Position numbers and translations under genes: made by a program
Source: Bugula neritina
Taxonomy: Eukaryota; Bryozoa; Gymnolaemata; Cheilostomatida; Bugulidae
Assembly: GCA_964035545.1 (NCBI GenBank)
Contig: OZ037772.1
Coordinates: 8,225,650-8,289,649 of the forward strand
Direction of reading: 5' to 3'
DNA: 64,000 nucleotides
Notes under the pieces: generated by a model
Databases searched by the model: none
Told to the model about the DNA's origin: nothing
What the model saw: only the letters and a program-made list of their open reading frames with translations
Shown here: in pieces, positions 5,492 through 58,770 of the stretch
Layout: every line of letters begins with the position of its first letter
How positions within the stretch are numbered: position 1 is the stretch's first letter

Positions 5492-5515
5492 ATGAGTAAA
5501 CTCACACAAAGCTGA
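5492..5515 (+). promoter_or_regulatory. Short upstream ORF overlapping the start codon
   Basis: ATG at 5492 opens a seven-codon frame ending TGA at 5513-5515. The last base of that stop is the first base of the ATG at 5515 (TGATG). If this sequence is in the mRNA leader, the uORF could dampen translation or allow reinitiation. That is inference; the transcription start is unknown. Confidence 0.25.
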
Positions 5516-7543
5516 TGGGAAAGCTGATGGGAAAGCTAAGTGGTAAACAGGGCTCTGATTCCAAAAATGATGATGAAGAGAAACAGACAAGCACTTGTGA
5601 GTTGAGGATAACTACCATCTGTCTTGAGGCAGTGTTATATTGTTTTTTGAATTTTCCAAAGTTAATGGCACTGATTTTCCTGACCTATATGAATACGCAT
5701 TCTTACATGTCACATTACAGCTAAAACTGAAGATGCTGTAAAAGTGTCCTCAGATATTCCAATCTGTACAGTTCTCACAAATAGAATAGAAGTTCTCCTT
5801 AAGCAGACCATAGCTGTGAACACAGTTAGAGAGTCTGGATACAGTGTGACAGAACTGGTGGAGACCATCCAGAGACTGGCACAGAAGCTAGATGGAGGGA
5901 AAGCTTTGAAGAAAATTAGAGCTTTGATGAAAATTATAACAAACCTTCATGCTGGACAGCGTGCTGTCCAATATGAAGCTATCAAATGGGAAGAAGAAAG
6001 TCAAACATTCCTTCATCTTCCTCAGACAGGAAGAATCATCATAGAAAATATTAGAGAAGACGAATTGGAGACATTTTTGTCTGCCATTAGTCTGCTTCTT
6101 GACGATGTAATCGTGGCTTTCCCAACTCTAGATGTCTTTGAAGTCACTGAACAAGCTCGTGAAAAGTTGGTTTCTCCAATCAAAGCTGACAAACTGAAGG
6201 GAATTGAGGGGCTCGTTTCCGGTTTATTGCTGAACGTCATGCAGAATAGAGAGTTCCTGTTTCAAGACTTAGTCTCAGAAGTTACACGTTTTTTACCAGA
6301 GACAGTTGTCGAAAGTCTTAACCAGATCTACAAAATGAAAGAAGACGTACTAAATAGAGATGGTCACAGGTTTACAGATCCACAACAACTGAATGAATTT
6401 ACTGACAGATACACAGCTTGTGTCAAGTTCTTCGTTGACGATTTTTACTGTTTCCCTCTTCGACCAAACCAAGAGGTCAGTTGGTTAGCTTTTCTCATTA
6501 GTTAGGATTCGAAATTGACCGCATTATATTCATGTCATACTCTTTGCCCATCATCTTTCTAACGGTTATTTTTGGCATGTTTCAGACCAAGAAGATGCTT
6601 TTGGAGCTGAAACCTACTGCAGAAGAGTTGAGATGCACGTTGAATGTTTACGATGTGTAAGCTTAATTGCATAGATTGTGTTGGTATCTTCATTACTCAC
6701 TTCATTCTTTTTGATACGTCTAAAACTCTTAGCGATATCTCTGCTAACAACACTCTTTCAGTTAATAAGTGCAAAGCCAAATATCAAATGTTGTCAGTTT
6801 TTGACCTGCAATAAAAAAAGTTTTTTTCAAGTGATTTGATTTTGTAATTTTCTTTTGTTTGAGTTTATCACGAGTTAGGCCTTTTGGGTGTTGGAATTTG
6901 TTTTTATAGTGTGGTGTCTCATTGATGAATTTCAGGTTAATTAAAGGCTATAAAGAAAAAGGTGCCTTTACACCGAAAGAAGTAAATTTTCTTGCGAGGT
7001 AAACAACTATAAAAGCTTTGCAGTTCTAATACTTTTAAAGTAGATTTTCTCATATAAGTCTCACAATTGACAGGTTTTACTATTTGTCGTAAACTCGAGG
7101 CTAAACTTGTTTTTAGGAAAGCAATATTCAAGGTGTCGAAAAGTTCATTTTACTCCAATTCACTTATGATATTTTTAAGCATTCTGTAGTAACTCTTTGA
7201 GTTTAAATTTTAGAATTTAATTTACCCAAAACACTGAAACTCAATAGGTATCAGTACACAGTGCTAAATTTGTAGAGCATTCACTTTTCTTCTTTAACAT
7301 GCTAAACAGTGTCAGCTGTTTCTTCATTAGAAGCCACGACCTCAAAACCTCAGTTTTTCTTGGAAAATAAAACAGTATTTTCTCATCTGAGTCAACTAAA
7401 AAACAATTCTTTTTACAGTGAACAGCACAGTCTATGGTCGGCTGCCAACTCTCACCTTGAAAATCTGTTGAAGTTCTCCCGAGAAGATGAGATTGACAAA
7501 GAGGTTGGAGAACAGACAACTGAGGAAGGTATTACTGGTCAAG
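5515..7543 (+). CDS. Start exon and helical module 1
   Basis: Exons 5515-5596, A1 5721-6475, B1 6586-6656, C1 6936-6998, D1 7419-7543. ATG 5515 is chosen because an in-frame TAA lies 18 bases upstream and the frame joins exon A1 (phase 1). The N-terminus is MGKLMGKLSGK followed by an acidic, polar stretch. The module (~338 residues) looks all-helical and hydrophilic, starting KTEDAVKVSSDIPICTVL and ending with EQHSLWSAANSHLENLL and an acidic tail. It has no signal peptide or membrane segment. I do not recognise the family; a death-fold or adaptor-like bundle is only a guess. The block enters and leaves in phase 1, so it can be duplicated without shifting the frame. Confidence 0.6.
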
Positions 7544-8037
7544 GTAAGTTAACATGGGATGTCAAGTGAGAACTCTTTGTAAGCAGACCGTTATAGCTGT
7601 TAAACTGTGAAACTGAATGGTGACACGACGTTTCGAACGTGTCAATTGAAAAATGAACGCTTGGAAAACAGACAAATCGACAATAGACTGCAGTTCAAAA
7701 GTTGAAATTTTGCAAATAAACAATTGTAAAATGAACATTTAAAAAATGAAAAAATATTTAACATAGTCTAGTCCAAAAAAAGCTGTTCAAAATTCGGCCC
7801 AATCCAAAATAGCTTATTGGCAACCGAGGAAAGTGTTACTGTTCAAAATAAGTCGACATGTGATGTCAAGTGAGAACAGAAACTTTTTGGAAGCAGATCC
7901 ATAATAGCTGTTAAGCTGGGGTAACATGAAGTGGTCTTTTTATGTGAAGCTGTATATAGTGATATGATATTTCGCAAAATGTCAACTGGAAAATGAACAA
8001 TTGAAAAACTGACAGAATACCAATAAAAATAGATGAC

Positions 8038-9109: not shown

Positions 9110-10923
9110 CTAAAGCTGAAGATGCTGTAAAGGTGTCTTCAGATATTCCAATCTGTACAGTTCTCACAAGTAGAATAGAAGCTCTCCTCAAACAGACCAT
9201 AGCTGTGAACACAGTGAAAGAGTCTGGATACAGTGTGACAGAACTGGTAGAGACAACCCAGAGACTGGCACAAAAGCTAGATGGAGGGAAAGTTCTGAAA
9301 AAAATTAGAACCTTAGGCAAAATCCTAACAACCCTGCATACTGAACAGCATGCTGTCCAAGACCAAGCTATTGAATGGGAAGAAGAAAGTCAAACATTCC
9401 TTCATCTTCCACAGACAGGAAGAATCATCTTAGAAAATATTGGAGAGAACAAAGTGGAAACATTGTCATCTGCCGTTAGTCTTTGCCTCGACGATGTGAT
9501 CGTGGCTTTCCCAACTCTAGGCGTTTTTGAAGTCATTGAACAAGCTCGTGACAAGTTAGTTTCTCCAATCAAAGCTGACAGACTGAAGGGAGTTGAGGGA
9601 CTTGTTTCCGGTTTAGTGCTGAACATCATACAGGATAGAGAGTTCCTGTTCCAAGACTTAGTCTCAGAAGTTACCTGTTTTTCACCAGAGACAGTTGTTA
9701 AAAATCTCAACCAGATCTACGGAATGAAAGAAAACTTGCTGAACAGAGATGGTCACAGGTTTACAAATTCACAACAACTGAATGAATTTACTGACAGATA
9801 CACAGCTTGTGTCAAGTTCTTTGTTGACGATTTTGACTGTTTCCCTCTTCAACCAAAGCAAGAGGTCAGTTGGTTAGCTCATCCCATCAGTTAGGATTCG
9901 AAATTGACCGCATTATATTCATGTCATACTTTTTGCCCATCGTCTTTCTAAGGTTATTTTTGGCATGTTTCAGACCAGGAAAATGCTTTTGGAGCTGAAA
10001 CCCACTGCAGAAGAGTTGAGATGCACGCTGAATGTTTACGACGTGTAAGTTTAATTTTGTAGATTGTGTTGGTATCTTCATTGTTTACTTTAAGCTTTTG
10101 TAGTCTAAAACCTTTATCAAAATTTTCCCTAATAACACTTTTTCAAATAATAAGTTTCAAATCAAATATCAAATGTTGTCGCAATTGTTAACCTGCAATG
10201 AACAGAGTTACATGTTTCAAGTGATTTGATTTTGTCGCATATGTTTGCTTGAGTTTATCACAAGTTATGCCTTTTTGGTGTTGATGTTTGTTTGTATAGT
10301 GTGGTGTCCCATTTATGAATTTCAGGTTAATTAAAGACTATAAAGAAAGAGGTGCCTTTAAACCAAAAGAAGTGAATTCTCTTGCAAGGTAGACAACTAT
10401 ATAAGCTTTGCAGTTCCAATACTTCTCAAGTAGATTTCTTCATATAAGTACCGCAGGTGACATATTTTTCTGTTTGCTGCAAACTCAAGGCTAAATTTAT
10501 AAGAAAGCTATGTGTAAGGTGTTGTAAAATTTATTTTGCTCAAATCCACTTATGACAATTCTAGGCATTTTTAGTAGTTTTTTGTGTTTAAATTTTATAA
10601 CTTGCAATTCACATCAAACACTAAAACTCAGTAGGTTTTACCACACAGTGCTACATATGCAGAGCACGTACCTTGCTTCTTGAGCATGCTCAAAGGTGTT
10701 CTGTTTCTTCATCGGAAACCACAACCTTAAAAGCTTATCAGTTTTTGCGAAATTGAAAAGTATTTATTTAAATTAAATAAAATAACACTTTTTTACAGTG
10801 AACAGCACAATCTTTGGTCTACTGCCAACTCCCATCTTGCAAATCTGTTGAAGTTCTCCCGAGAAGATGAGAGTGACAAAGAGGTTGGAGAACAGACAAC
10901 TGAGGAAGGTGTTACTGGTCAAG
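9110..10923 (+). CDS. Helical module 2
   Basis: Exons A2 9110-9864 (755 nt), B2 9974-10044 (71), C2 10326-10388 (63), D2 10799-10923 (125). Lengths are identical to modules 1 and 3, and all donors and acceptors are consensus. It joins D1 in phase 1 and D2 leaves in phase 1. The protein starts KAEDAVKVSSDIPICTVL and is closely similar to module 1, with changes such as VLKKIRTLGKILTTLHTEQ and CLDDVIVAFPTLGVFEVIEQ. No stop or frameshift is seen, so the copy looks intact. It is the most diverged of the first three. Family not recognised. Confidence 0.6.
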
Positions 10924-11211: not shown

Positions 11212-11773
11212 TGTGATAGATTCTCATCCTCTACTCAAGTAACTGCGTGTGTCAGTATTATAATTACTGTTGCGTATATTTTGAATGCTGTAATTGTAGC
11301 TAAGTTGCACTAGCTTTCTAATGCCTTATTATTGTGATTAAGCTTTCAGTATAATGTAATTTTCATTAAATACGCATTTCCAGAGTTATTTTCCCTTTTT
11401 GCTATTTCATCGTTTTGCATTAATACTGATACTGGAAATTTGTGTAGCTTTTATGAATGCCTTCAATAGGTTGTTATTATAGCTAAATTCTTGGCCTATT
11501 GAATTATTCATTCTCCTTTGTCTATTTTTCTTTTGTTACTGCCAAGCTTAACTTTCTTTTGTCTGTTGGAACATTCTAGATGTGAATTCTTGTGTATAAA
11601 AGCAGGCGAGTTTCCAGTGTAGATTCAGACTACTACTGGAGCTCGCTGGTAGTAGGACCACATAAGCTGTATTTAATGCTAATAAAGTTATCTTCATTCG
11701 TATTCAGATACTTGGCTTATTCTCTCTAGAGCATGTAGGCACTAGTTGCATTCAAAACCCACAGTTTACTACA
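11212..11773 (+). repeat. 5' LTR of element 1
   Basis: 562 bp, TG...CA termini. It contains a TATA-like TGTATAAAAG near 11592 and a poly(A) signal AATAAAG near 11682, in the order expected of a promoter-containing LTR. A related solo LTR is at 54989 and a more distant one at 50253. Confidence 0.95.
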
Positions 11774-11823
11774 TTGGTGGCAGCGGTGGGATTTTCGAAT
11801 AACTAGTTGCCGAGCGGCACGCA

Positions 11824-12729
11824 ATGGCCTCAGGGGACTCAGCCCCTGAGGCAGCAACACCACCAGCCCTCACTGTTGAGGCGCTGGTCACAGTCCTTCA
11901 GGGATTGCGAGGGCAAGGACAGGCATCACCTGGTGACAGGTATCGCCTCCAGCCCCCGAATTTCGGAGGAGAAGGAGACGTAGAGCAATTTATCAGGGAG
12001 TTCCAGGATGTGGCCACCATCGCTGAATGGCCAGTACGGGTGCGCATCCTCCAACTCCGGGCCTGTCTGACAGGCCGGGCCAAGAGCTTCGCTCTTGGGC
12101 CTGATGAAGAGCACATCATGCGGGCTCTCAGAGCCCGGTTCGGCCTAACAGCCGAAGAAGCAGCTGATCGTTTGCAGATAATGAAGAGAGACCTGAAGAC
12201 TCCTCTGGAAGATCACGCTAACGAGGTAGAGCGCCTGGCTCAGGCTGCTTTCGGTCAAGCCACTGGCGACGACCGGAAGCGCCTCGTTTATAACGCGTTC
12301 TTCTGGAGCGTGAATCACCCGGACCTGCAGCGATACTGGCTGGCCGCCAAGGTCAACAGTATAGAGGAAGCGCTGGAAATGGGGAAGGCTTACTTCCAGG
12401 TGGAAGAGCCTAGGCGACCGAGCTATACAGCCCGCCAAGTGGTCGAGGAGCATGAGGAGACCACCCCACTTCCAACTCCACAGGTAGCAGCAGCTGCAAC
12501 TAAATCACCCGAGCAGACGCAGCTCACCATGTTACTGGACATGATGAAAGGCCTGCAGGCTACGGTGACGAAGTTGCAGAACGAACAGGCGGATAGGCGG
12601 GCTCCCCGTTCACGGGACAACCCTGTCCGCCCATCTCTGCTAACCTGTTGGGGGTGCGGGGCGCAAGGGCACGTGAGGAGGCACTGCCCTAGAGGCCAAG
12701 GGCCTTTAAACACCCAAGGCTCACGGTAA
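11824..12729 (+). CDS. gag: Gag-like polyprotein of element 1
   Basis: 301-residue open frame starting 50 bases after the 5' LTR. The central part resembles retrotransposon capsid/gag domains: EGDVEQFIREFQDVATIAEW is closely matched in element 2. The C-terminus has one CCHC zinc knuckle, CWGCGAQGHVRRHC (C-x2-C-x4-H-x4-C), the nucleic-acid-binding motif of gag nucleocapsids. It ends in TAA before the pol region, which lies in another frame. The frame is intact. Confidence 0.85.
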   Translation: MASGDSAPEAATPPALTVEALVTVLQGLRGQGQASPGDRYRLQPPNFGGEGDVEQFIREFQDVATIAEWPVRVRILQLRACLTGRAKSFALGPDEEHIMRALRARFGLTAEEAADRLQIMKRDLKTPLEDHANEVERLAQAAFGQATGDDRKRLVYNAFFWSVNHPDLQRYWLAAKVNSIEEALEMGKAYFQVEEPRRPSYTARQVVEEHEETTPLPTPQVAAAATKSPEQTQLTMLLDMMKGLQATVTKLQNEQADRRAPRSRDNPVRPSLLTCWGCGAQGHVRRHCPRGQGPLNTQGSR

Positions 12730-12875
12730 CTTCCGCCAACCGTGGGCCTCACGCCAATCCCATCCGGGATAGGACTCGAAGAGGAGAAGAAGAGACCTCC
12801 ACAGGGTCTGCCGATACCGAGTGGCAGAGGCCACGGAGACCTCGGAGACCGCAAGGTCTACCCGATCCTCTGGCC

Positions 12876-15800
12876 GTGTCACTCGAGACCCGGATGCAGC
12901 TAGAAGAAGCAGGATGGCAGGCACCTCGGAGATCTCGGAGACCGCAAGGTCTACCCGATCCTCCGGCCTGGCCACTCCAGAACCGGTTCGCGGGGTTGCC
13001 CGAGGAGGTTGTGGAGGAGGATTCAGCTTACTCGCAAGAGTACCCCAAGCTACCCTCCCGACCTCAGAAAACCCCCGTTGTCTCTAAGACGAAGAGGAGG
13101 CCCGCTGTGCGGACCCAAGTTGTGTCTCCCCCAGAGACTGACCGCTCCAGGAGCACCCAGCCGTATGGAAGCAGCTACTTCCTGCCCGGAAAGATTTCGG
13201 GTAAAGCTGCCACATTCCTACTGGATACTGGGTGCACTACCAACCTGCTGAGTAGGCATCTCTTTGACACTCTTGGTGCACGAGAGCGGGCGAGCCTCGA
13301 GCCGTATGAAGGTGCGCATGGTACGTTGGCGGACGGATCATGCATTCCTTTCTACGGCGTCATTTCACTACCTGGACGCGTCCGTGATCAAGCAATTCAC
13401 GAGACGTTCATAGTCAGCCAGCTGAAGGAGGACGCCATCCTGGGAATGCCGTTTCTGGAGAAACACCAGTGTCACATGGATTTCCAGAAGTCAGTGGTGG
13501 TGATGGCTGGGAAGGAGCTTGTCTGCATCGAACAAGTTCGGAAGGCCCTTGGTGGGCGGAGTCCAGGTAGTGCGGGACTGCACGGTTCCGGGGAGATCCC
13601 AGGCGACTCTTCGCTGCAGAGTCAACTGCAAGGGGATCGCCGGCCTGGGGGTGGTTGAGGGAACGCACGGAGCGATCCGACTAGCAAACAGCCTGAATCG
13701 GCTAGATTGTCGGCAGGAGCTCCTCGTGCAGTGCATCAACCCCTTCACGGAACCTGTCCGATTATCAACTGGAGCGCTGGTGGGGAAGTACCACTCCATC
13801 CAGGAAGCGGATGTGGGTCCGGCACTGGAGACAGTGGCCGACACCCAGGGGAACCCCCCTCACACCAGACGAGGAGCAGTCCCAGAGCATATGGCTGACC
13901 TATATGATGGAGCGTGTGGAAACTGTACAAGTAGTACTGAACGCCAAGTACTGGCTCAACTACTTGCAGAGTACAGTGATGTCTTCAGTCGTGGCGATGG
14001 AGACATGGGGCTGACCAAGGTCATCTCCCACAAGATACCCCTGGCAGCCGGCACCACTCCCATCAGGCAGCCTACCCGGCGTCTAGGCCCGGAGAAGGAG
14101 AAGGAGGTGAGCCGACAGGTACAGGATCTTCTCGACCGGGATCTGATTGAGCCTGCCCACGGTGCGTGGAGCTCTCCAGTAGTCCTGGTCAAGAAGAAGG
14201 ATGGTAGCTGGAGATTCTGCGTGGACTACCGCAGACTCAACAGTGTTACCATCCAGGACGCCTACCCTCTCCCACGGATAGATGAGTTTCTAGATGCCCT
14301 CGCGGGTAGCAAGTACTTCAGTACTTTGGATCTGCTTAGCGGGTACTGGCAAGTACCCCTCAGTCCTGATGCCCAGGATAAAGCAGCATTCATCACCCGC
14401 GACGGGCTCTGGAAGTAGAAAGTACTGCCATTTGGATTAACGTCCGCTCCGGCAACTTTCCAACGGCTCATGGAGCAGGTCCTCAGTGGGTTACACTGGA
14501 AGACCCTCCTCATCTATCTGGACGACGTCATTGTCATCTCCCCAGACTTCTCGACCCATGTCAGTCGTCTGCGGGAGGTCTTTGACCGTCTCCGGGCAGC
14601 TGGACTGAAGCTAAAGCCCTCCAAGTGTGCACTCCTGCAGCCGGAAGTCACGTACCTTGGCCATGTGGTTGGCCGTGACGGGGTCGCTACCGACCCGGAG
14701 AAGGTACAAGCTGTGAAGGAGTGGACCGTCCCCCGTGACCTCCCTGAGTTGCGTGCGTTCCTGGGCCTAGTAGGGTACTACCGGCAGTACATACCTGGCT
14801 TCGCAGGAGTGGCTCAGCCGTTAAATCGGCTGACCGCAAAGGGGGTCCGGTGGCAGTGGACACAGGAGGAGCAGCAGGCATTTGACCACCTCAAGCAGCG
14901 GCTAATGGAGGCGCCAATTCTGGCGTATCCTGACCCAGCCCAAGAGTACATCCTGGACACTGACGCCAGCGACCACAGCGTGGGAGCTGTCCTGTCTCAA
15001 GTTCAGGGTGGAAGTGAGGTGGTCGTAGCTTACTACAGCAAGACTCTCGCGGCCGCCGAGAAGAACTACTGCACCACTAGGAAGGAACTCCTAGCAGTAG
15101 TCAAGGCGGTCTGTATGGGAGAACGTTCCGTTTGCGAACAGACCATGCATCACTGATATGGCTGTGTAAACGTGCAGAGCCCTTGAGCCAGGTGGCTCGT
15201 TGGCTAGAGATTCTTGCCGAGTTCTCTTACCGGATAGAACACCGTGCTGGCCGGAAGCACGGGAACGCTGACGGCATGAGCCGCCGGCCGGTAGGAGACT
15301 GTAAGCAGTGCCTGCACATTGAGAAGCGGGACGGGGGACCCGCTCGCCTTGACGTGGAAACAGAGTTAGGGGAGGGCGCCGTCTATCGGTGGGAGCACGG
15401 CCATCTTCGGACCGAAACCCACTCAGACGACGTCCAGGCGCTCCACGCCAACCCCACTCTGTACCAGAATGTCAAGGAGCTGTGCCGACTCCAGGAGACG
15501 CTACCCGGCGCGGTAGCGGACATTTTCCGGGCCAAGAAGGAGGGCCGACGACCTAGCGAGGAACAGCAGCGGCAGGGAGACATTGAGTTCCAACTCCTCT
15601 GTCGTCGCTGGGATGCCCTCAAGGTCAGTCCTGATGGCCTCCTGATGATAACGTTAGCAGCAGACAACCGTCAGCAAGAGAGGGACCGCGTCGTCTGTCC
15701 ACGTGCCCTCCGACGGGAACTGATCTGGGACACCCATAAGCAGGCTCATTCTGGAGTCAGTCGGGTCATCAGGTGTCTGCGGCTGCGTTGGTATTGGCCC

Positions 15801-19755: not shown

Positions 19756-21579
19756 CTAAAACTGAAGATGCTGTGAAGGTGTCTACAGATATTCCTATCT
19801 GTACAGTTCTCACAAGTAGAATAGAAGCTCTCCTCAAACAGACCATAGCTGTGAACACTGTGAAAGAGTCTGGATACAGTGTGACAGAACTGGTAGAGAC
19901 AACCCAGAGACTGGCACAGAAGTTAGATGGAGAGAAAGCTTTGAAGAAAATTAGAATGTTAGGCAAAATCCTAACAACTCTGCATACTGAACAGCATGCT
20001 GTCCAAGACCAAGCTATTGAATGGGAAAAAGAAAGTCAAACATTCCTTCATCTTCCTCAAACAGAAAGAATCATCTTAGAAAATATTGGAGAGGACAAAT
20101 TGGAAACATTGTCATCTGCCATTAGTCTGCTCCTCGACGATGTGATCGTGGCTTTCCCAACTCTAGACGTTTTTGAAGTCACTGAACAAGCTCGTGACAA
20201 GTTAGTTTCTCCAATCAAAGCTGACAGACTGAAGGGAATTGAGGGACTCGTTTCTGGTCTATTGCTGAACATCATACAGAATAGAGAGTTCCTGTTCCAA
20301 GACTTAGTCTCAGAAGTTACCCGTTTTTCACCAGAGGCAGTTGTCGAAAGTCTGAACCAGATCTACAGAATGAAAGAAGACGTACTAAATAGAGATGATC
20401 AAAGGTTTACAGATTCACAACAAGTGAATGAATTTACTGACAGATACACAGCTTGTGTCAAGTTCTTTGTTGACGATTTTGACTGTTTCCCTCTTCAACC
20501 AAAGCAAGAGGTCAGTTGGTTAGCTTTTCTCATTAGTTAGGATTCGAAATTGACCGCATTATATTCATGTCATACTCTTTGCCCATCATCTTTCTAACGG
20601 TTATTTTTTGGCATGTTTCAGACCGAGAAGATGCTTTTGGAGCTGAAACCTACTGCAGAGGAGTTGAGATGCACGTTGAATGTTTACGATGTGTAAGTTT
20701 AATTGTGTAGTTGTGTTGATATTTTCATTATTCACTTCATTCCTTTCGATACGTCTAAAACTCTTAGCGATATCTCTGCTAACAACACTCTTTCAGTTAA
20801 TAAGTGCAAAGCCAAATATCAAATGTCGTCAGTTTTTGACCTGCAATAAAAAAGTTTTTTTCAAGTGATTTGATTTTGTAACTTTCTTTTGTTTGAGTTT
20901 ATCACGAGTTAGGCCTTTTGGGTGTTGGAATTTGTTTTTATAGTGTGGTGTCTCATTGATGAATTTCAGGTTAATTAAAGGCTATAAAGAAAGAGGTGCC
21001 TTTACACCGAAAGAAGTAAATTTTCTTGCGAGGTAAACAACTATAAAAGCTTTGCAGTTCTAATACTTTTAAAGTAGATTTTCTTATATAAGTCTCACAA
21101 ATGACAGGTTTTTCTATTTGTCGTAAACTCAAGGTTAAACTTGTTTTTAGGAAAGCAATATTCAAGGTGTTGAAAAATTCATTTTACTCAAATTCACTTA
21201 TGATATTTTTAAGCATTCTGTAGTAACTCTTTGAGTTTAAATTTTAGAATTTGATTTACCTGAAACACTAAAACTCAGTAGGTTTTACCACACAGTGCTA
21301 TGTTTGTAGAGTATGCACTTTTCTCCTTTAACATGCTAAACAGTGTTAGCTGTTTTTTCATTAGAAGCCACGACCTCAAAACGTCAGCTTTTTTTGAAAA
21401 AGATTAAACAGTATTTTCTCATCTGAGTCAACTAAAAAACAACTCTTTTTACAGTGAACAGCACAGTCTATGGTCGGCTGCCAACTCCCATCTTGCAAAT
21501 CTGTTGAAGTTCTCCCGAGAAGATGAGAGTGACAAAGAGGTTGGAGAACAGACAACTGAGGAAGGTGTTACTGGTCAAG
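19756..21579 (+). CDS. Helical module 3
   Basis: Exons A3 19756-20510, B3 20622-20692, C3 20970-21032, D3 21455-21579, with the same lengths (755, 71, 63, 125) and phases as modules 1 and 2. The protein begins KTEDAVKVSTDIPICTVL. Exons B-D and their introns are closest to module 1 (for example the shared intron text GGCCTTTTGGGTGTTGGAAT), while exon A and its upstream intron are closest to module 4. That mosaic points to unequal crossing-over or gene conversion. No inactivating change is seen. Function unknown. Confidence 0.6.
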
Positions 21580-33421: not shown

Positions 33422-35496
33422 GCTACAAGTGCTGGTTCCGACATTCTGGAATGGATCCAGTAGTTAGTCAGATCAGTGAGAAAAAGACTGATACTTACTC
33501 TAAAAAGGAAATACTGAGGACTATGGGACAACACACGATCACAGATCTAAAGATTGAGGGTGACATACCTTCCGCTATTACTGAAATAGCTCCAAAAGTT
33601 ACTAATCTCTGTGTCAGATCTCTGACCAATCCTAACAGTCTGGAAGTGTAAGTCTGTGCCTGTATGTTACACTTAAACCCTTTATGTATTGAATAGCTCA
33701 AAGTAACAACAACCAATATCTGCTTACTAAAACTACACACCTATGTTGACTAGACTTGTCTAAAAGTAACCTTGGTTCTCTAACTGAAGAGTCTATAATC
33801 ATTTTATTTAAACCACTTTGAACAGATAGCGTCTCCATTTTCAGCTATGTATTTGTGTCAGATTAAAATATATCAACCTGTTTTAAAAGGAACACTTGTT
33901 CTATTGAATATAATTATACCACTGTCGATTTTTTGGAATTTGTAGAATATTTATGCTGAAGTTCTTGCAGCTATTAGATGTGTCTGACAGCCAGCTGAAT
34001 GACATACCTGAAAGGTAGGCTTTCACTGTTTTCAAATATTACATAATAATGAAAGATGGAAACTTGTGCGGAAATAGTTTTTATAAAGAATATACTTATT
34101 TATTATTATGTAATAACTGTTATCACACTTTCATACCTTTTGTAGCTTATTTAAGCTTCGGTTTCTTCACACGCTCAACCTGTTTTCAAACAACTTAACA
34201 CAACTGGATAGCAAGAGGTAGGATGAGGATGCAAGCTTGTGTCAAATTTAATTTTAAAGTTTATTTTTCATGTCTCACACTTGATTGTGCAACCAGAAAA
34301 ACGTTTTAGCACTTTCCTATTTCGTTACGTTCTATGACATTACGGTATTTTTAAAATTTGTGACAGGTTCTCTCGGCTCACCTACCTCAAGGTTTTAAAT
34401 GTGTCCAAAAACAAATTGACAGAATTTCCTAGCAAGTAAGTTGCTATTCACGATTCCCAAAGAATTACATTTAAGTGTAAATTTTAAAGGGTGCAAATGG
34501 TTTAAAGCTCAGAGATGCTAAATTAGTGTTTTAGCATTAGAAAAATGGTTATGCTATAGCTATATAAGCAAATAGTTTGTAAATAAAACGCTGTATAATA
34601 ATCTGAAGATTACATTTTGTTCTTTGTAGGTTATCGCAGCTTGTATATCTGCACACTTTGAACTTGTCACATAACAGAATGCAGCACTTAGATGACTGGT
34701 ATGTATTATATAAATTATAAAACAGCTGAACAAATTTTACTTCTTTTGCTGTGTTATTTACATTCAATCATGCGGTGTTGACCGTTTTTCTCAATTCAAA
34801 GACTTTTAAACACTGATCGATATAGTAACCAGCTGGAGCCTATATTAGACGAGTGAACATTATGATCACTGTACCAGTTGTTTGATATTGTTTTGCCATA
34901 CTTTTAACACTGCCATTTACTTTGTGTCGGCATGTTGCAGTTTTTCTGGCTGGAAGCGCCTTCAAATAATTGATGTATCTTATAACCATCTGAGGGTAAT
35001 ATCAGAAAGGTGAGTACCGATGTTATTAAATAAGCTGTCTGTATTATTTATGTTATTTTCTACTTTTTTATGCCAATTTATACATATATATTTTAGCCTA
35101 TCCCAGCTTATTTTCCTCCGAAGTTTGAACGTGTCTCATAACAGACTTAGAGCTTTGCCAGAAAGGTAAGCTGCTCTTGTGTGACAACCAATTGGTTGTC
35201 AACTCTTTGTCTTTTCGAAGCCAACTGCTGTGTATATTGTAAATCATTGCTTATTGCAGTGTGTATGAGTTGGTTTTAAAGAAAGCAATTAGGCCTATAG
35301 CTCATTATACTGCATAGACTTTGACATCTAAACTATTTTTTCTGCTGTAGCACTTCACAGCTGTCATATCTGCAAGTACTCAATGCATCACACAACCATC
35401 TCCATACTTTTCCAAAACAGTGAGTTTTGTTTTCATAACGATAACGTTTTAAACTTTGACTCCACTATCAAAGATGTGATTAAAAAGTATTGTGTG

Positions 35497-35548
<52 letters not shown>

Positions 35549-35964
35549 TGTGTTATATATAATTTCTTAGTGCTACTACTAGTGAGAAACACATTATTAA
35601 AATGTTTTTATAATTATGAGAATAGTGCACTAGACTCTATATGCCTGTCATTTTTCTATCAGTATTTTATCTTCTGTTATCAATATACAACTCAGTATTT
35701 TCTCCAAACCTTTTTCTTTGTTGCAGACTTGAAAAACTGATATTCCTTCAAAAGTTGAATGTAGCCAATAATCACCTGAAATCACTGCCTCCTCAGTAAG
35801 TTTTTGTGTGGTACTGTTGTGTTTTACCATAGTAGTATGTTCATTCTTTTTCGGTCTGGAATCAAAGTTTTTTCTAACTCACTTTTATTTTCTAGACTGC
35901 CTAAGCTCCAATATCTGACTGAGTTTGAGTATTCTAACAACCCGCTGACTATTACTCCAAAGCA
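33422..35964 (+). CDS. Cap domain copy 1 and nine single-LRR exons
   Basis: Exon 33422-33647 encodes a ~75-residue cap (YKCWFRHSGMDPVV ... EIAPKVTNLCVRSL) 85-90% like the cap at 48148. Nine exons follow: 33946-34014, 34146-34217, 34367-34435, 34630-34698, 34941-35009, 35097-35165, 35351-35419, 35727-35795, 35896-35964. All are 69 nt except the second (72), and all enter and leave in phase 2, one leucine-rich repeat per exon (for example FLHTLNLFSNNLTQL, FLRSLNVSHNRLRALPE). LRR solenoids bind protein partners. The spacing LxxLxxLxxxxNxLxxLP is typical of ROCO-linked LRRs. No stop is seen. Upstream joint uncertain: E4 gives Cys, D4 or the 26607 exon gives Gly at the junction codon. Confidence 0.65.
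33731..33795 (+). pseudogene. Fossil LRR exon in intron
   Basis: Aligns with the start of exon 48464-48601 (CTAGACTTGTCT... shared), but the splice acceptor and first bases are gone and the frame contains stops. Flanking intron text also matches the second copy, so cap and LRR start were duplicated with introns and this exon then died. Confidence 0.6.
35491..35553. repeat. TGCG tetranucleotide microsatellite
   Basis: About 15 units of TGCG within an intron between the seventh and eighth single-LRR exons. Confidence 0.95.
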
Positions 35965-44188: not shown

Positions 44189-44394
44189 ATATGAGTATTT
44201 TTATTTTAATAAGGTTTTTTTGTAATACGTTACTTATGCTTTATTTTTACCATAAGTGATGCAATTGAGGTTGTGTTTTAAACAAATTACTAATTTTAGC
44301 TAGCCAAAACACCATATTGTTGTAGTTTTGTGCACTACTAAAATTGGTTTTATTTTGTGTTGGTAATTACTGCATATCCACTGTGAGGTTATGT

Positions 44395-44750: not shown

Positions 44751-44813
44751 AGGTATACTTTCCATAACCATTACAATATTCACATCTAGGCATAATCTCA
44801 TTAATATTTTCAG

Positions 44814-45537: not shown

Positions 45538-45578
<41 letters not shown>

Positions 45579-45602: not shown

Positions 45603-45654
<52 letters not shown>

Positions 45655-48147: not shown

Positions 48148-51100
48148 AAGGTTACACATGCTGGTTCCGACATTCTGGGATGGATCCAGTAGTTGGTAAG
48201 ATTAGTGAAAAAGAGACTGATACTTACTCTAAAAAGGAAATAATGAGGACTATAGGAAAATACATGATCACAGATCTAAAGATTGAGGGTGACATACCTT
48301 TGACCATTACTGAAATAGCTCCAAAAGTTACTAATCTCTGTGTCCGATCTCTGACCAACTCTAACAGTCTAGAGGTGTAAGTGTGTGTCTGTGTTTTACA
48401 TTTATACCATTTATATGTGTCTGGTTACTCAACATGACAATAAATAATATTTGTTTACTGCAGTCTCCCTCAACTCACACACCTCCGTCTACTAGACTTG
48501 TCTGAAAATGACCTGGGTGTTTTGCCTGAATGTATATCGAAGATGACATCACTCAAACACCTGTGTCTTGTGGATTGCAATTTGTCTAGATTACCAAAGG
48601 GGTGAGTTACTAAAATGTTTATCTCAATTCTAATAGTGCTGGTCATGTAATCTAGTATACAGAACGTGTTTAGTCATGTTCTTCCTCTGTTTCAGTCTTT
48701 CTCGGCTCCACAATCTACAGACGTTAAATGTATCTGACAATAGTTTTGACAAGGGAATGTTGCCTGCAGTAATATTGAAGATGAGCTCTCTCATTGAGCT
48801 ACATCTGGTTGATTGCCAATTACTTTCATTACGCAAAAGGTTAGTTGTTTGTTGGTTGAAAAGCTGTGTAACTAATAAACTTTAAAGTTTTGTATTGAGA
48901 GAATAAACTTGATTTAACAGCCAAGCAGCTTTCAGCTGCCACCATGACCTGAGGTGCGGCCACTGAATTTAGGTAAAAATGGCACAGGTAATAATGGCAC
49001 AGATAATAATGGAATAAGTGGAAGTTATCTAAAAATGGCAAACTTATGTTCAATTTAGCTAAACCCCAAACTCGCATTCTAAACCCCTAACCCCACCCTA
49101 AACTCTAATATTGAAACTGTGCTACTCTTACTACTTTGTTGTGTGTGCCATTATTACCTGTGCCATTACTACCTGTGCCATCTTTACCGTGCCATTTTTT
49201 ACCTGTACCATTTTTACTAGACACGGTGGCCACCCCATGGTCACACCTCAGCTTTTTTCCCAACAAGCCAACACAGGTTGGCACGTTAAGGTGCTCTGTA
49301 CCAGACACCGGTTTCACTCTGTACCCCCTTACCAGCACTACTTTTACTGGTAGGCAAATAAAAACTAGTTTTTGTTATTAGAAGTAATAATAGCTAGTAG
49401 GAAAAAAATATTAGAAGCAGTAGTGAAAATGATAAGAAGAAGTGATACTTGAAGGTAATAACCGTTATCAGAAAGCAAGATTTCAAATTTATCTGCCGCT
49501 GTTGCAGTCAAAAATGAAAAAGAAACACGAGCAAGCAATATGGCCGCTCAACGGGAACACTTAGTGGTTTGCACGTAGAACTCTCATTTTGTTTGTGTGA
49601 TTCATCTGAAAAATTTTGGTATGAAAGACATGGCTAATGTTTATTGTAGAGTCTTCACCAGTAGCATCTCATCACTGAAGCGCCTTCAAGTGCTAAACCT
49701 GTCTTTGAATAGACTTCCTACAAGTATCTTAGATGCTGTGTTACCGCCCCTGGTATCCTTGAGAGAATTGAATTTGAGCTAAAGATTTTACCAAAGAGGT
49801 ATGCCAAATATAAAAAGATGTGATTACAATTCCATAAATCTAAACTCAGTTTAGTACTAACTATAATAACTCAAAATGCTTTTAGAGCTTGTGCAGCATT
49901 GTATCCAATCGTTGTGGCAACTTACTTTTTCATGAAAGTTGAATTGTATTTGACAAGAATAATTATTTTATACAATTGAAATGAAGTTTTACTCCATTTA
50001 AATATTACATAAAACTTATATAAGAATAAAGAATTTGTTCTGTGAAGTTCTGTCCACATTCAGAAAAACTATTCAACTCCGAAAAACACAGCTGATTTTG
50101 CCTATCATCTTTTATAGAAAACCAGTGTTTTTAAAGTAGTTTGGTTAGGCAGTAGTTGAGCATGCTACAGTATTTGTCAAGCAAAAGCTTTCTTCATTTT
50201 AATTTAATCACTTTGTTTCCCAATGTGTCTGCTGTGTGCCTTTTACTAATATTGTAGTGATTTTTAGCGCGCAGTGATTTTAGATTTATTTTTCCAAATT
50301 TTTCGTTTAACTACAGTGATTTTTGTGAAATTATGTAAACCGATCTCTGCCAAAAATTGGAAGTGTGAAGGTGTCGCGACTTCCCACTAGGTTTGATGGC
50401 AACTGATTGTCAGATCCGATCGGATTTAATCGAATGTGATCGGACATGTCCGAGGCTCTGACATCTTCGCAGGAACCCTGATTTTCGGACGCAATCAGTA
50501 AAAGATTCGCGAAGGGACAATTTTCCAGTATATAAGAAGGCGAGCTCACAGAGTAGAATCAGTCTACCACTGGAGCTCACTAGATCAAGACACACAAATA
50601 TTCTTACAGCATTTAATAAATATTATTCTACTCAACACGGACAACATATCTTGTTTCTTATATTACGGAGTTATGCTTCCCTTTTAATTGCATTCTACCC
50701 ACAAAACTACTACAATATACACTCAAACTAATATTATGTATTTCTCTATTGTTTTACACGAGTGGCCTCACGTTACTATAAAACGTAATATAATGTTCTA
50801 CAGCATATCTTCACTGAGAAACCTTGAAGTGTTGAATGTCACTGGTAATGTGCTCTCTGATAATCAACCGGATAATGCATTCTCTTCTTTACTATTATTG
50901 AGAGAGTTGAACATGGAGAACTGTCAGCTGAAAACTCTTCCAAAGAGGTATTCATATCATATAATCTAATATTTCTCTTGCTGCGTTTTTTTTATTTGGT
51001 TCATATATCTGCTGTAAAAACCAGTAATAAATTTGAATGAACATGTGCCAGTTTTTATAGCAGTATTATAAAACAATACAGATGTTATCGCATATTATCG

Positions 51101-52073: not shown

Positions 52074-54076
52074 CATAGAGGGCCTTCAAAATTTGCAAAG
52101 CCTGGACACTTCAAACAACCACTTCATTCACTTACCGTCTTCTATATACACATTGAGTAGTCTACAGATATTAGACGTTTCCTACAACAATTCCTTGACA
52201 TCCTTGGATCCAGAAATATTGCAGCTCTCTCAACTGCAGGTTCTGAAAGTGGACGGCTGTTATGCTTTTACATCTCCACCACTAGCAGTATGTGAAAGAG
52301 GATTAAATGCTGTGCGACAGTACTACACAGATTTGGCTAAGGGTGCTGGTAAAAACTTACCACTTGTTACAGTGGCTGTATTAGGTAATGCACTGGCTGG
52401 GAAGACCAGTCTAATCAAAACGTTACAGAGCACTGACAAGAAGAGAATGCTGACTGACAGAAGTCCTAACGCTGAGATAGATGAGACTACAAAAGTTTTC
52501 AATGTTGAAGAAATTGAAGTAGATGGTACAGTGCTTCGTCTCATTGATATGGGAGGCCTGGAGGTCTACCACGTAACATATCAACTTACAATGAGACAAA
52601 ACTGCATACCATTAATTGTAGTCAACATGGAGCAGTATGATCAGATTTCAAGTGAGTGTCCAGTTAGAGAGGCTGTCAGAAGGCTGGCCTTTGACTTCAT
52701 GTCTCACCTCTATCTTGCTTATCCGTCTCTTGGCCCACCTAAGCTTGTTTTCACTCATAAAGACAAATTCTCAAACCTCGTATTTAGAAAGCTCCAACAG
52801 GATTTTTTCACAGTTTTACATCAGTTGTGTGCAGAAATTCTTGTAGAAGAGAAAGCATTAGGTGGTGAGGCTGTTCCAATGCAACACTTCAATGATTTAA
52901 TTGGACGAGTTTTTGCCAATGACGATATTTATGAGATTGGAAAAGAAAATGAGTACGAGGTGTTTGACAAGATAAAAAACTCCCTCCTTCAAAGCAGTCA
53001 ATGCTTTGTTAAATCTTTGCCTTTGATTTGGGAGGATGTTAATCGATTGGTTTTGTCTCTTTCATCTCCCTACAGCACTTTTGATAATATTCTAAAAACT
53101 GTACAAACAGAGCTTCAACACATTGAGTCAAGTCAGCTAGACATGATTTTCACATACATGCATGACTGTGGCAAGATTCTTTGGTATAAAGATATCAGCT
53201 CTCTTCATTTTTACATATTTCACAAAATTTCAGAGGTCACCAGACTTCTATGTGTTTTGCATCACCATGATTCAAGCATATGGCAAAGTCGAGTTGATCA
53301 ATTTTTGCCATATGTTTCAAAAGAGCAAATGTTTGTTGAAAAGGAAGACTTTGAGAGGTTTGTGAGTCATTTCACCAACACCGGTTTGATGAGGCAAGAC
53401 CTTCTTTGCTATCTAATTAGAAAAGAAACATCATTTAGCAGCGCAAAGGATGTAGAAGTTGCTGTTTGCTTACTTCAAACCTTTCGTCTGTTGCATGGTC
53501 CTATACAGGTTGGTTTCGAGGAGCCATGCTTTATTGTACCTCAGTTTTCCAATGATTACTACAGCACTTCCTACTCTCCACCGAAGAGCTTGGTCCTTCA
53601 AGTTGAAACACAGTTTAATGGATTGGCCTTACCACAGTATGTTTACCATCAGATGACTGTTGGTTTGCTGAAGCAGTTTCCTGGTGAATTTGCTGTCATG
53701 AAAGTGAAGAGAAATGGAGCTAACATCTACCAAGATGGAATACACACGCAGCTGGTACATGATAACAAGTCTAGAAAAATCTTGTTATACGTGGCATCCG
53801 ATGTTGCCAACATCAGCAGGATGTGGAAGACGCTCATCGCCACCTCCAACCACATACTGAAACCAGTTATGGAAACTTGGCCTGCAAGCAGGCTAGTCAC
53901 CGCAAGTTACTGCGCTCACTGCTTATTACTAGGACTTCCATGTCCTAAAAAGGTAATAAATCCTCGGTGGTGTCTTCGGTCCTTGAAGTCTCCCTTACCA
54001 AAGATCAAGCTGTGTAGCGGATCTTCAACCACCTTGTGTGCTGACGAGGAAATACCTTCTGCTATGGTCTACCCCT
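52074..54076 (+). CDS. Last LRRs and ROC-COR GTPase domains (ROCO family)
   Basis: A single 2003-nt exon. It starts with about three LRRs (LQSLDTSNNHFIHLPSSI, LQILDVSYNNSLTSL). The ROC GTPase has a P-loop GNALAGKTSL (around 52387), a switch-like DMGGLEVY (DxxG) and FTHKDKF as the base-recognition motif. The COR-like region follows (LPLIWEDVNRLVLSLS ... LLHGPIQVGFEEPCFIVPQF), the dimerising partner of ROC in LRRK, MASL1 and DAPK-type proteins. No kinase follows. The GTP-binding residues look complete, so it may bind nucleotide. Enters phase 2, leaves phase 1 at ACCCCT|GTATGT. Likely a cytoplasmic signalling scaffold by family; no membrane segment is evident. Confidence 0.85.
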
Positions 54077-54356
54077 GTATGTTTATTTAACTTAATTTTA
54101 TTTAAAATTGTTTTCTTCAGATTTGAAATCTGACTTCCTAAAATATTCTATCTTATGAGAACGTAGCTTAGAGTAGACCTGTATACAAACACCTAATCGT
54201 TTCTTAGTCTACCAATAATATAGTAAAATTGAATCACCTCCATACTTTTGCACATTTTTGAGACAATGTCATTATTGCGAGTGCACATATGATATTCTAT
54301 ACGCAATTTTTGAGTAGTTTACATAAAACTAATATGTGAAAACATTTGTTGCGCAG

Positions 54357-56036
54357 GTGAGACAATCACAGAAGTTGAAGCTGAAAAATTGGATAAGTTT
54401 GTGAATGAACTGATGAGCCGGAGAGAAGCAAACAAAGCTTCTAAATCTGGTAAAGTACTAGTAGTTTAGGTTTAGGAATAACTGGTTTTAAAGCACTCCA
54501 ATTCTAAAAAAAGTTTAAAGTTTAAACAAAATATAGCACTCGTATAATAAAAATGGAATGAAGTTGTGAATGATTTCGCGTGGCAATAAATTATCTATAG
54601 GTAGTATCTTCAGTCATCATTGGTCAGTTTTATTAAGCGGTGTCATCCCAGATAGACGCTTCCTAGTTAGACGCCAGAATTGTCTTGCTTGTGAATTATG
54701 TTAGAGCAATGTAGTGCTGGATGCTTGTTTATGATAAAAAGAGTTCTCATTTTTGTAAATTGAAAGTTGTTTTAGGTTATATTCTGATTTGGAATAAAAA
54801 ATTACATAACAGTAATTCATTTGTATTTACTTTCTGGTGTTGCAAACATAAGAAGATGTGATTTTTTAATATCTTGTAATAATTGTGCATTTTGTAATAG
54901 TACCGTTCTCTTGTTATAGTAGGCCTATTCCGTAATAGTATTGCTTTCCAAATAAAGATATTTTAGTGAGTTTTAAGTATAATGCTATAGTAATAGATTT
55001 TCACCCTCTATTAGTTTTGAAGTAACTGCGTGAGTCAGTATTATAATTACTGTTGCGTATCGTTGTGAATGCTGTAATTGTAGCTAAGTTGGGCTAGCTT
55101 TCTAATGCCTTATTATTGTGATTGTTGTTAAGCTTTCAGCATAATGTAATTTTCATGAAATACGCATTTCCAGAGTTATTTTCCCTTTTTGCTATTTTAT
55201 CGTTTTGCATTAATACTGATACTGGAAATTTGTGTAGCTTTTATGAATGCCTTCAATAGGTTGTTATTATAGCTAAATTCTTGGCCTATTGAATTATTCA
55301 TTCTCCTTTGTCTACTTTTCTTTTGTTACTGTCAAGCTTAACTTTCTTTTGTCTGTTGGAACATTCTAGATGTGAATTTTTGTGTATAAAAGCAGGCGAG
55401 TTTCCAGTGTAGATTCAGACTACTACTGGAGCTCGCTGCTAGTAGGGCCCTAAGCTGTATCTGATACAATAAAGGTTATCCTCATTTGTACTCAAATACT
55501 TGGCTTATTCTTTCTAGAGCATGTAGGCACTAGTTGCATTCAGAACCCACAGTTTACTACACTATTACACATTTTTATAATTACACAGTTTTTTAAAGTT
55601 TCTTTTTTCAGCTTGTTTTAGATGTTTATGCTGTCGCTTTATTTCATTACCTGTTATTAATCACTAGTGGGAGAGTACCACTGATTTCTGTAATTTTAAA
55701 GGGACAGGCAACTTCCACTTAAGAATAAGTTAAATGAAAACTCAACAATGTTGCTTTTCTTTGGATACCCCTTCTCTAATTACAATCTTGGGTGTTCGCG
55801 GTTCATTTATTATAATATTATTGCATCGTATGAGCTGTAGTTATTATTTTGTTGCTATAGGAGAGAGCAGTGTGCACAGAGAACTAAAATTAGACTATGA
55901 TGATCTGAGTGATCTCTCCGATGAGGATGACTATCTCTACCCTGATAAGAAGGAAGTGGAGCTGAAGTTTATAAGACCCAAACTAAATCCAACTACTAAC
56001 CCAAGGATAACACAACTGTTCTCAAATACTGACAGG
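54357..56036 (+). CDS. Linker exons between COR and caspase fold
   Basis: Exons 54357-54449 (93 nt, phase 1-1) and 55861-56036 (176 nt, phase 1 to 0). About 90 residues: a charged helix (EAEKLDKFVNELMSRREANK), then a strongly acidic stretch (DYDDLSDLSDEDDYLYPDKK) leading to the caspase fold. Such acidic linkers between domains could hold cleavage or phosphorylation sites; none is demonstrable here. Confidence 0.6.
54989..55561 (+). mobile_element. Solo LTR of the element 1 family
   Basis: 573 bp, clearly homologous along its length to the 562-bp LTR of element 1, with CTAT duplicated at 54985-54988 and 55562-55565. The first base pair is mutated from TG. Older than element 1. Confidence 0.9.
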
Positions 56037-56408
56037 GTACTGACTTGCTTTTTAGTCTCAAGTTACAAATTCATTTAGTGGGCTTCATTCAGTCGATTTT
56101 AACATTAATTTATAACAGCTTCCAAGTGAATTTTTCTATGCAAGCACAAGTAAACGTACACAAGTGCAGTGCTTCTGTTTTATTGTTAAACATCCTTATT
56201 TTCAAAAATTTATTTAGGTATAACTTCAAAAATAAACATTTAAATTATTCTTTTGCAAAGCAGGTATAATTTTTTGCTTTGTAAATTTTGTTCTTGTGTT
56301 CACTCTACGAGTTTTGTAAGTTGTTCTAAATATATTGCTAAGGATATTATGAATGTGTAAGCAAGGTATATAGTATCTACCTATATTCTGTCAATAACCT
56401 ACATTTAG

Positions 56409-58770
56409 GTGTACAATATGACACGAAAAAGAGGAAGAGCTTTGATAATAAACAACAAGAACTTTGATGAAAGACCAGATCTGTGTAGGAATGGTTCAGA
56501 TGTTGATGTTGAAAATTTATCTACCATGCTGAAGGCCTTCATGTTTGATGTTGTGACACACACAGATCTAACGGCAATGGTACATGTTAAACATATACAC
56601 TGGTTTTTAGCCTTTGGTATAGTTAATAAATAGTTGCATAGCTTGTCTTGACAGAAATTTGAGTAAACTACCTACTATTTCATTTTATTTGAACAAGTTA
56701 GAACTTGATTAGCTTCAAGAATTGCCCCTATATGGGAGATTTTGCGGTTTTCAAAATTAAAATGGTTTTTAAATAACACCAACAAAAGGTTTTAATTCTA
56801 AAATGTTTGCACTATAAAATCTTTTAGGCTATTCTGTTAACCATCAAAGATGAAGTACAACGTAAAGAACACGAAGACCTGGGATGTCATGTGTTGGTTA
56901 TCATGAGTCATGGAGGAGTGAATAACTATATCTATGGTGTTGACATGAAAGTATTCAGGCTGACAGATGTGTATGATCTACTGACACCTCTGAACTTTCC
57001 AGCCATGGCTGGGAAGCCCAAAGTTGTGATTATTGAAGCTGCTAGTGGAAGTGAGTGGCACATTTACTATATGATGTGAAACTTGAAATACTTTAAGGTT
57101 TTGCTTGGAGTCTCAGTTGTGACGCATCACATATTTCACATCTTTATATTTTTATTATCCATTGCCGGAGTAAAGCTAATTATTTTGACTTGATAGAATA
57201 TAATGTTATGTTGTATCATATTTCATATATTCCATTTATAATATCTAATAATCATACTATTCAGTTGTTTCTAAAATTGAATCATTGTCACTATAATAGT
57301 TGAGTTTTAGGAAGCTTGCTGTGCAGGTGAATATTTTCATTTTCAAGCAATCAGAGGCCTACTATATGTTACAGCAAGGACAGATGTTGGTGAAAGAGGT
57401 ATAAACCGAGCACTTGATCTTGGACAAGCTAAGGTTGAGGATTCTGTAGTAGCCAAACCTGTTGGAGTTTCTGGGGCTAAAACTGCTGAAGCTCTAACCA
57501 GACTGAATTATGATGACCTGTTAGTAATGAAGTCAAGTATGGAGTGTAAGTACTGGTGTAGTTTGCATAGCAGCCATAGTATGAATAGTTACCAGACGAA
57601 TCAGGGTCATTTTGACGAACATTAAACCCATAATAAAAGTATTAGTTGCGGCCTTTTGACCACTTTGGAATTTGCATAAAAGGAGATCCCATTTTAAACA
57701 AACCAAATTAATATTTTGGAAAATAGTATAAAAACAAAGCTATATACAATGAAATTAGCACAATTGAAGAAACCACATAGCCTAAGTGAGCAAATAGAAG
57801 CAAAGTTTTATACCTTTCAGTCTAAAAAATAGTGCAATTTTCAGGAAGAAAATTATTTTTTATAAAAGGGTCAATTGCTTTTTAAACAATATTATTAAAT
57901 TTGGCCACTGGTGCAAATAATGGAGAAATGTTACTTCAAGTTGTTTGCATGTTCCATGCCATCGGTTGTATAGATTATACATATTAGTTATATGCGGCTA
58001 TATATGTGGCTAAATGTGTGGCTAAATGTGTGCGTGTGCGTTCTTGTGTATGCATATATACGTATGTATGTATGTATATATAATTATATTGATTTCTTCA
58101 CATTTAAATTTTATAATTGCTAAATTTATTATATTGATTGTAATAATTATGCTAACATGCATCAATTAAATCGTTTTTTCTTGACATATTTTGTTTAATG
58201 TCCTTCAGCATACTTGCGCATACAAATGTTTTTTGGATGCATTTCTAAAATTGAAAAAACGCTTACTCTTTACTCACTTGTATTGTAGCATTTGTATCAC
58301 GCCGTCACCCGGTATATGGATCTCTAATGATTAGAGCTCTGGTATCGTCCATGTACACGCATGCCTGTCACCATGATCTCTACACCATATTTAAACAGGT
58401 ATTTCCATCTCTACAACTTTTTGTATGTGCATCCATTGACCATCTTGTTCATGCAGCTTGTTTTAAAATGTCTCACTACCATGCACTTTGCTAATAGCCA
58501 ATAGGAGTATAATATGATCATTTTATATAAATTGTAATGCTGAGAACCTCGTGTGATTTGCACACACCTCTGATAGGCTGAGTTTTATATATTTTATTGG
58601 AGTATAAAATTACTAGTATGTGGAGGGCGTGGTTAACTATTTAGGTGCAGACCAAAGTGAGGAAACTGTGTGTAGACAGAAATCTGCATAGTGGACAGCT
58701 GGTTGTAACTTGGGACACCCTCACTCACATGAGAAAACTTTACCTCTTTCCTGGTTTCAACGGCGAGTGA
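56409..58770 (+). CDS. C-terminal caspase-like domain, catalytic cysteine replaced
   Basis: Exons 56409-56579, 56828-57050, 57327-57545, 58289-58398, 58645-58770 (TGA). p20-like part: RGRALIINNKNFDERPDLCR then NGSDVDVENLSTML, with the S1-pocket arginine (codon 56487); VIMSHGGVNNYIYGVD carries the catalytic histidine (codon 56909). GKPKVVIIEAASG lies where caspases have QACxG: the cysteine codon is GCT (Ala) at 57041-57043, and Gln and Arg are also changed. p10-like part: FVSRRHPVYGSLMIRAL keeps the Arg of the SWR motif, and HMRKLYLFPG is the typical last strand. The fold is thus complete but should be inactive as a protease, like c-FLIP-type pseudocaspases. Likely a docking or dimerisation partner; that is inference. 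Confidence 0.85.
57546..58288. other. Intron, nothing recognised
   Basis: AT-rich, with a short GTGGCTAAAT/ATGTATGT simple-repeat tract around 58000-58080. Confidence 0.4.

Follow-up and report, generated by a model that had tools for sequence, protein, structure and literature searches.

Introduction

ROCO proteins, among them LRRK2, DAPK1 and MFHAS1, are studied in connection with Parkinson's disease, cell death and inflammation, and how their GTP switch acts on the output domain is debated. To our knowledge, none of the human proteins MFHAS1/MASL1, LRRK1/2 and DAPK1 contains a caspase. Here we describe a gene in a 64,000-nucleotide stretch of the genome of the bryozoan Bugula neritina (C8:8225650-8289649, in a genome of 215.8 Mb and 295 contigs; hereafter the window), which shares its ROC-COR core with these proteins and with brown-algal LRR-ROC-COR proteins (LRR, leucine-rich repeat), which likewise have no caspase. 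It is probably a member of a large LRR-ROC-COR-caspase (ROCO-caspase) family, in which receptor, switch and protease would be combined, the window copy being a regulatory, catalytically dead member.

Comparable architectures have precedents. Kaur 2021 (eLife, PMC8195603) describes LRR-AP-GTPase-COR proteins of bacteria whose C-terminal domains are of at least 24 kinds, a caspase included, and the order LRR, ROC-type GTPase, COR, caspase is like that of the window gene, the two being likened by description only. For amphioxus, Zhang 2008 (PMC2575513) reports hybrids of LRRs and caspase with a QACXG active site and suggests that recognition may lead directly to apoptosis; these hybrids keep that active site, unlike the window gene, and the paper does not use the word Roc. 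Single LRRs encoded in phase-2 exons, as in the window gene, are described for brown-algal ROCO genes, together with exon shuffling, in Teng 2024 (PMC11378527). A described animal LRR-ROC-COR-caspase family was not found in the open-licence literature by title or abstract opening among the papers listed, in most searches the best 12 to 20 of 14 to 233. The architecture itself is nevertheless already precedented, in animal database records and in bacteria (Kaur 2021), and an earlier note on this DNA, which knew of no ROCO family ending in a caspase fold, is contradicted by records from Watersipora, Bugula and Branchiostoma, by these bacterial proteins and by at least 93 places in the genome studied here.

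A family of ROC-COR and caspase genes

Twenty 10-kb regions were chosen from the caspase-exon matches in the genome. In 19 of them the ROC-COR, linker and caspase exons lie in the same order and on the same strand, with conserved splice sites; the exception is L028, where ROC-COR is absent from the stretch examined. At a few loci (L022, L023, L025 and L036) the distal caspase exons are missing from the examined stretch. Exons near 2003, 93, 191, 171, 223, 171, 110 and 144 bp, whose phases agree, are found at L019, L021, L029, L030 and L035, of which the first two deviate somewhat from the common sizes.

Over the whole genome, at least 72 of the 78 loci with a switch-II match have a caspase match on the same strand within 10 kb downstream (a lower bound, the caspase places being the 178 among the matches listed; six loci are without one), whereas a caspase match lies upstream at one of the 78 and on the other strand at none. 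A COR-A search gave 23 loci outside the 78, and 21 of these have a caspase match on the same strand within 10 kb downstream. The pair of ROC-COR and caspase occurs at no fewer than 93 places, counting the window, and the fusion is therefore a property of a family. The earlier note had placed ROC-COR and a caspase fold in one gene, a proposal that would fall if no junction joined the COR exons to the caspase exons; that junction is backed by the exon order and splice sites of the 19 paralogs, and we regard the joining of the two parts in one gene as secure, judged from genomic sequence.

The same architecture is found outside this genome. By alignment, the Watersipora subatra proteins P0023, P0040 and P0043 contain LRR, ROC, COR, acidic linker and caspase in the order of the window gene, with Pfam Roc below its cut-off in all three; they differ from it in that no helix-rich modules are seen, the catalytic Cys is kept and the switch-II residue is His or Asn. 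A full-length W. subatra homolog, acidic linker included, aligns with 100% of the query at 35% identity. Further LRR-ROC-COR-caspase proteins are present in B. neritina and Branchiostoma database records, the Branchiostoma 'MFHAS1 homolog isoform X2' (P0055) sharing the architecture of the window gene and being distant (27% over 29% of query P0023). The W. subatra records are named MFHAS1 homolog or uncharacterized, and since several database records carry the MFHAS1 label, ROCO-caspases are easily missed. The MFHAS1 names of bryozoan records are hard to square with a 2014 review (PMC4104024), which states that MFHAS1 genes are limited to deuterostomes.

Two W. subatra proteins, P0040 and P0045, have the N-termini MGAKSS and MGCSLS shortly before the LRR cap, which we take to resemble N-myristoylation signals, and membrane anchoring through them is possible. 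In another, P0053, LRR-ROC-COR-caspase is followed by fibronectin type III domains and a hydrophobic C-terminal stretch.

The caspase domain and its active site

In the window, the ROC-COR exon is followed on the forward strand by two linker exons (54357-54449 and 55861-56036) with an acidic LSDLSDEDD stretch, the second of which is conserved in all 20 fetched paralogs, and by five caspase exons. Exon C1 (56409..56579) contains RNGSD, presumably the region of the S1-pocket Arg; C2 (56828..57050) carries the active site; C3 (57375..57545) encodes the p20/p10 linker and the start of p10 and measures 171 bp, as in L029 and L030; and the last two are C4 (58289-58398) and C5 (58645-58770, with the stop). 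Among solved structures the window caspase is closest to animal CED-3 (E 4.5e-24), the p10 stretch alone being weak, and by sequence it is of the animal type, with both p20 and p10. In favour of an acquisition of the fusion from bacteria is the same domain order reported in Kaur 2021 (PMC8195603); against it are CED-3 as the nearest match among solved structures, the many introns and the naming of relatives as animal MFHAS1 by NCBI, and we consider such an origin very improbable.

The catalytic His-Cys dyad is incomplete in the window, where the His is present (MSHGG) and the Cys is replaced by Ala (EAASG). Both residues are found in all 20 fetched paralogs, which are among the closest caspase matches, with the Cys in an ETCSG, EVCSG or EACSG motif, and His and Cys are also kept in 14 of 14 caspase-bearing database relatives (12 from W. 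subatra, one from B. neritina and one from Branchiostoma; three further W. subatra matches lacking a precomputed Pfam caspase were left out). A pseudoprotease character of the whole family was rejected on these counts, and among the members checked the predicted protease-dead state is peculiar to the window copy. The earlier reading of the caspase fold as a pseudoprotease is supported for the window copy, whereas a scaffold with a pseudoprotease is not supported as a general reading; a role in cell death or immunity stays the best inference.

The ROC-COR switch

The end of the LRRs, the ROC GTPase and COR are encoded by a single exon (52074..54076, +), recognised by Pfam and by its predicted fold. 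The P-loop GNALAGKT, the switch II DMGGLE and the G4 motif THKD that define ROCO GTPases are all present. Pfam Roc was found in all 32 aligned members, the window falling just short of the cut-off of 27 with 26.9 bits, and COR-A in 25 of the 32 at E 0.01, with a weak match in the window (E 0.0066, 16.8 bits, where the cut-off is 35.3); one of the 32 has a weak NACHT match (E 0.0041). The fold of the exon is predicted with confidence, at a local distance difference test score (pLDDT) of 89.3 and a template modelling score (pTM) of 0.88, and the best PDB matches of the model are LRRK1 and the LRR-Roc-COR protein (Roco) of C. tepidum; it also matches the COR crystal structure 3dpt. COR follows ROC directly, as in ROCO proteins.

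The switch II motif of the window (D-M-G-G-L-E-V-Y-H, 52546..52572, +) has Leu in place of the family's usual Gln, and it is the only one to do so among the 78 loci, where Gln occurs at 71, Asn at four and His at two. In Ras, the change of Gln61 to Leu locks the GTP state; the effect of the Leu within the ROCO-caspase family is uncertain. Late in the COR of the window and its relatives there is also a conserved C-x-x-C motif (YCAHC), together with another invariant Cys, and this motif is possibly a metal site.

The gene model

The exon chain was obtained with a gene finder trained on family exons, the window's own ROC-COR and helix exons included, and was then refined manually using paralogs and the B. 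neritina protein P0039. The ends of the gene-finder model shift with the penalty, and in two settings they overrun the true stop. The refined model (5515-58770, +) has 43 exons, 9,087 bp and 3,028 residues with no internal stops, and every intron is bounded by AG/GT with all phases compatible. A chance chaining of exons was ruled out by the gene-finder score, 442 on the forward strand versus 22 for the reverse complement and 29 for the reversed sequence. The first coding exon (5515..5596, +; MGKLMGKLSGKQGS...) comes from the gene finder and the final model, and a stretch resembling it lies upstream of the helix module of L013 (54% over 24 residues).

A Pfam scan of the 3,028-residue model (E 0.01) found Peptidase_C14 at residues 2770-2993 (E 1.5e-35, 123 bits) and LRRs, with Roc at E 3.1e-5 and 24.6 bits, short of the 27 required, and gave no kinase, NACHT, NB-ARC or death domain. 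The identity of an NLR (STAND NTPase) was rejected on the lack of NACHT or NB-ARC matches, and that of a LRRK/DAPK-type kinase ROCO on the lack of any kinase family at this threshold, LRRK and DAPK having kinases in contrast to the window gene. Scanning the window for Rfam families and tRNAs gave nothing useful. Weak candidate exons at 421-1335 (+), upstream of the model, perhaps belong to another gene or are 5' exons.

The model agrees with the earlier note in that the helix modules, two LRR arrays, ROC-COR and caspase all lie where that note had located them, and in the phase-compatible chain; the number of exons is 43 and not 44. Profiles and structure comparison recognise the LRRs, ROC-COR and caspase, the helix module being left without a clear fold match. 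As for a single gene across all blocks, the step from ROC-COR to caspase is upheld by paralogy and that from helix modules to LRR is supported, while the join between the LRR arrays is unproven.

Helix-rich modules and leucine-rich repeats

At the N-terminus of the model lie four helix-rich units, all on the forward strand. Unit 1 (5721..7543) has exons of 755, 71, 46 and 118 bp, the last two with uncertain boundaries; units 2 (9110..10923) and 3 (19756..21579) are from the gene finder and the final model; and unit 4 (23765-24516, 24721-24794, 25036-25086 and 25344-25444) had its exon ends fixed against P0039. The two small last exons of units 1-3 can also be delimited in another way that is equally compatible in phase. 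Helix modules have phase 1 at both ends and LRR exons phase 2, so that duplication of either leaves the frame intact. The ratio of nonsynonymous to synonymous substitution rates (dN/dS) between the four modules is 0.29-0.77. A DUF4904 match is diffuse over them (28.5 bits, no single stretch above threshold), and structure comparison gave no clear match to their fold, which does not make the fold new. The B. neritina proteins P0035 and P0038 are 87% and 83% identical to the helix-module locus L018. Further helix arrays are found at C9:8863302-8923646 (eight copies) and C6:15629995-15654547 (four copies), with no caspase close to the C9 array among the caspase matches listed.

The first LRR N-terminal cap (cap A, 33422..33647, +; YKCWFRHSG...) is 84% identical to the second (cap B, 48148..48376, +), which was placed by this similarity and the gene finder; the genome has 62 cap matches, these two among them. 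Cap A precedes array A (33946..35964, +), made of nine exons (69 or 72 bp, phase 2-2) that each encode a single repeat, and cap B precedes array B (48464-48601, 48696-48839, 50804-50947 and 51192-51335, +), also in phase 2-2, whose exon type (138-144 bp) is that of the paralogs. Between the arrays, three hydrophilic linker exons (44814-44947, 45830-45937 and 47967-48059, +) come from the gene finder only; they have no homologs among the loci and proteins compared and are the least certain part of the model.

The junction of helix array and LRR (25444 to 33422) is supported by two comparisons. In B. neritina EB796_018105 (P0039, 349 residues), a database gene model, a helix end like that of unit 4 (..KETMEAIT) runs directly into an LRR cap (AYKCWFRHSG..) exactly as in the window, and at L039 a related helix array reaches an LRR cap exon in compatible phase. 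The join between the two LRR arrays (35964 to 44814 to 48148) is consistent with phase and with a clean retroelement insertion between them, and is unproven. The window might instead hold two or more genes head to tail, one made of the helix array and LRRs (5515 to about 35964) and another, an LRR-ROC-COR-caspase gene of ordinary length, starting near 44.8-48.1 kb. The rarity of helix modules (20 matches in the genome) beside the many ROC-COR and caspase pairs fits such an arrangement, as do L039, with no ROC-COR or caspase in the 10 kb examined, the linker exons without homology support, and W. subatra proteins such as P0040, which begin shortly before the LRR cap and have no helix modules. 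It is countered by the phase compatibility of the whole 43-exon chain, by the first linker exon, which has no ATG within it or upstream in its open frame, and by P0039, where the cap is followed by repeats of the array-B type in one model, so that helix array and such repeats belong together in B. neritina. We hold the two-gene arrangement to be a serious contender, though the less probable one; were it correct, the ROCO-caspase core would be unchanged.

Retroelements in the introns

Three retroelements with long terminal repeats (LTRs), all with TG..CA ends, were found: 11212-18535 (target-site duplication CACT, LTR pair 99.6% identical), 28322-32885 on the minus strand (TTTAG, 100%) and 36616-44188 (ATAT, 95.8%). 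From the LTR identities, the first two elements at least seem to have inserted recently. The second and third occupy the long gaps 24516-33422 and 35964-44814, respectively, and are later insertions into introns. Retroelement reading frames as a source of the exons were rejected, the three elements sitting between exons. The gap 54076-56409 contains the two linker exons, and between them a solitary LTR-like stretch (55020-55561) that shares 94% identity with the first element's LTR.

Selection on the window copy

Relative to five paralogs, the window has a dN/dS of 0.13-0.18 in ROC-COR, with dS above 1 in all five comparisons, and of 0.12-0.20 in caspase exons C1, C2 and C4, each pairwise value averaging two branches. 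At positions invariant elsewhere it departs at nine of 152 in ROC-COR (L027 at 22, L021 at 17 and L024 at 10) and at six of 87 in the caspase, the switch-II Gln and the catalytic Cys being among these departures. A decaying pseudogene that lost its catalytic residues through neutral drift could account for the missing Cys and Gln, the one broken LRR exon, the three retroelements in introns and the largest number of C2 departures among the sequences compared. Such decay would not be expected to leave an open frame of 3,028 residues with intact splice sites, the low dN/dS against paralogs, or so many positions that are invariant elsewhere (143 of 152 in ROC-COR and 81 of 87 in the caspase), and we judge it unlikely.

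In the LRRs, variation was compared at exposed positions, taken as the ten xxLxLxx positions of the general LRR consensus and fixed after the exons had been viewed. In group I (15 exons) it is concentrated there, with a proportion of nonsynonymous differences (pN) of 0.266 versus 0.055 (permutation p 0.0004), and positive selection is suggested in this one of the two exon groups.

Several points tell against our reading of the family and of its window copy. The LRR signal falls short of proof, because the ratio of pN to its synonymous counterpart (pN/pS) in group I is 1.33 with a bootstrap range of 0.75-3.69, and because group II (11 exons) has no excess at exposed positions (0.56, p 0.11). 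The closeness of the 20 paralogs in which the Cys was checked and the limits of the pairwise dN/dS belong here too, and a recent relaxation of the window copy is possible. In exon C2 the window departs at four of 40 invariant positions, the highest number, the others doing so at most at two. A further LRR exon of the 144-bp type, at about 49660-49800, has an in-frame stop and was omitted from the model, which keeps the frame because the other LRR exons are in phase 2-2. Finally, of the 13 database relatives covering the switch-II site, 12 have His or Asn there, so that the window's Leu need not block GTP hydrolysis.

Proposed mechanism and implications

On the reading we prefer, that of a ROCO-caspase family combining receptor, switch and protease, the variable LRR array would bind ligand, and ROC-COR would be a GTP-controlled dimerisation switch that pairs two C-terminal caspase domains, which would then be activated by proximity. 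Sensor, switch and death protease, elsewhere separate as NLR, adaptor and caspase, would thereby lie in one chain. The window copy appears to be derived, with its four N-terminal helix-rich modules, the change of the caspase Cys to Ala and a ROC Leu at the position of Ras Gln61, and may pair or compete with catalytic paralogs as a regulator; cFLIP acts likewise toward caspase-8. Since its sequence looks constrained, it most likely acts without proteolysis. More speculatively, and with considerable doubt, it may be a brake or helper for the ROCO-caspase arsenal that, protease-dead and possibly GTP-locked through the Leu, would set the threshold of its approximately 90 relatives by mixed ROC-COR and caspase dimers.

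Dozens of natural ROCO copies with a caspase as their output would make cleavage a simple read-out for the GTP switch. B. neritina would be a colonial invertebrate whose very large repertoire could couple sensing and killing within single proteins, and its natural protease-dead member would offer a way into what keeps such an arsenal in check.

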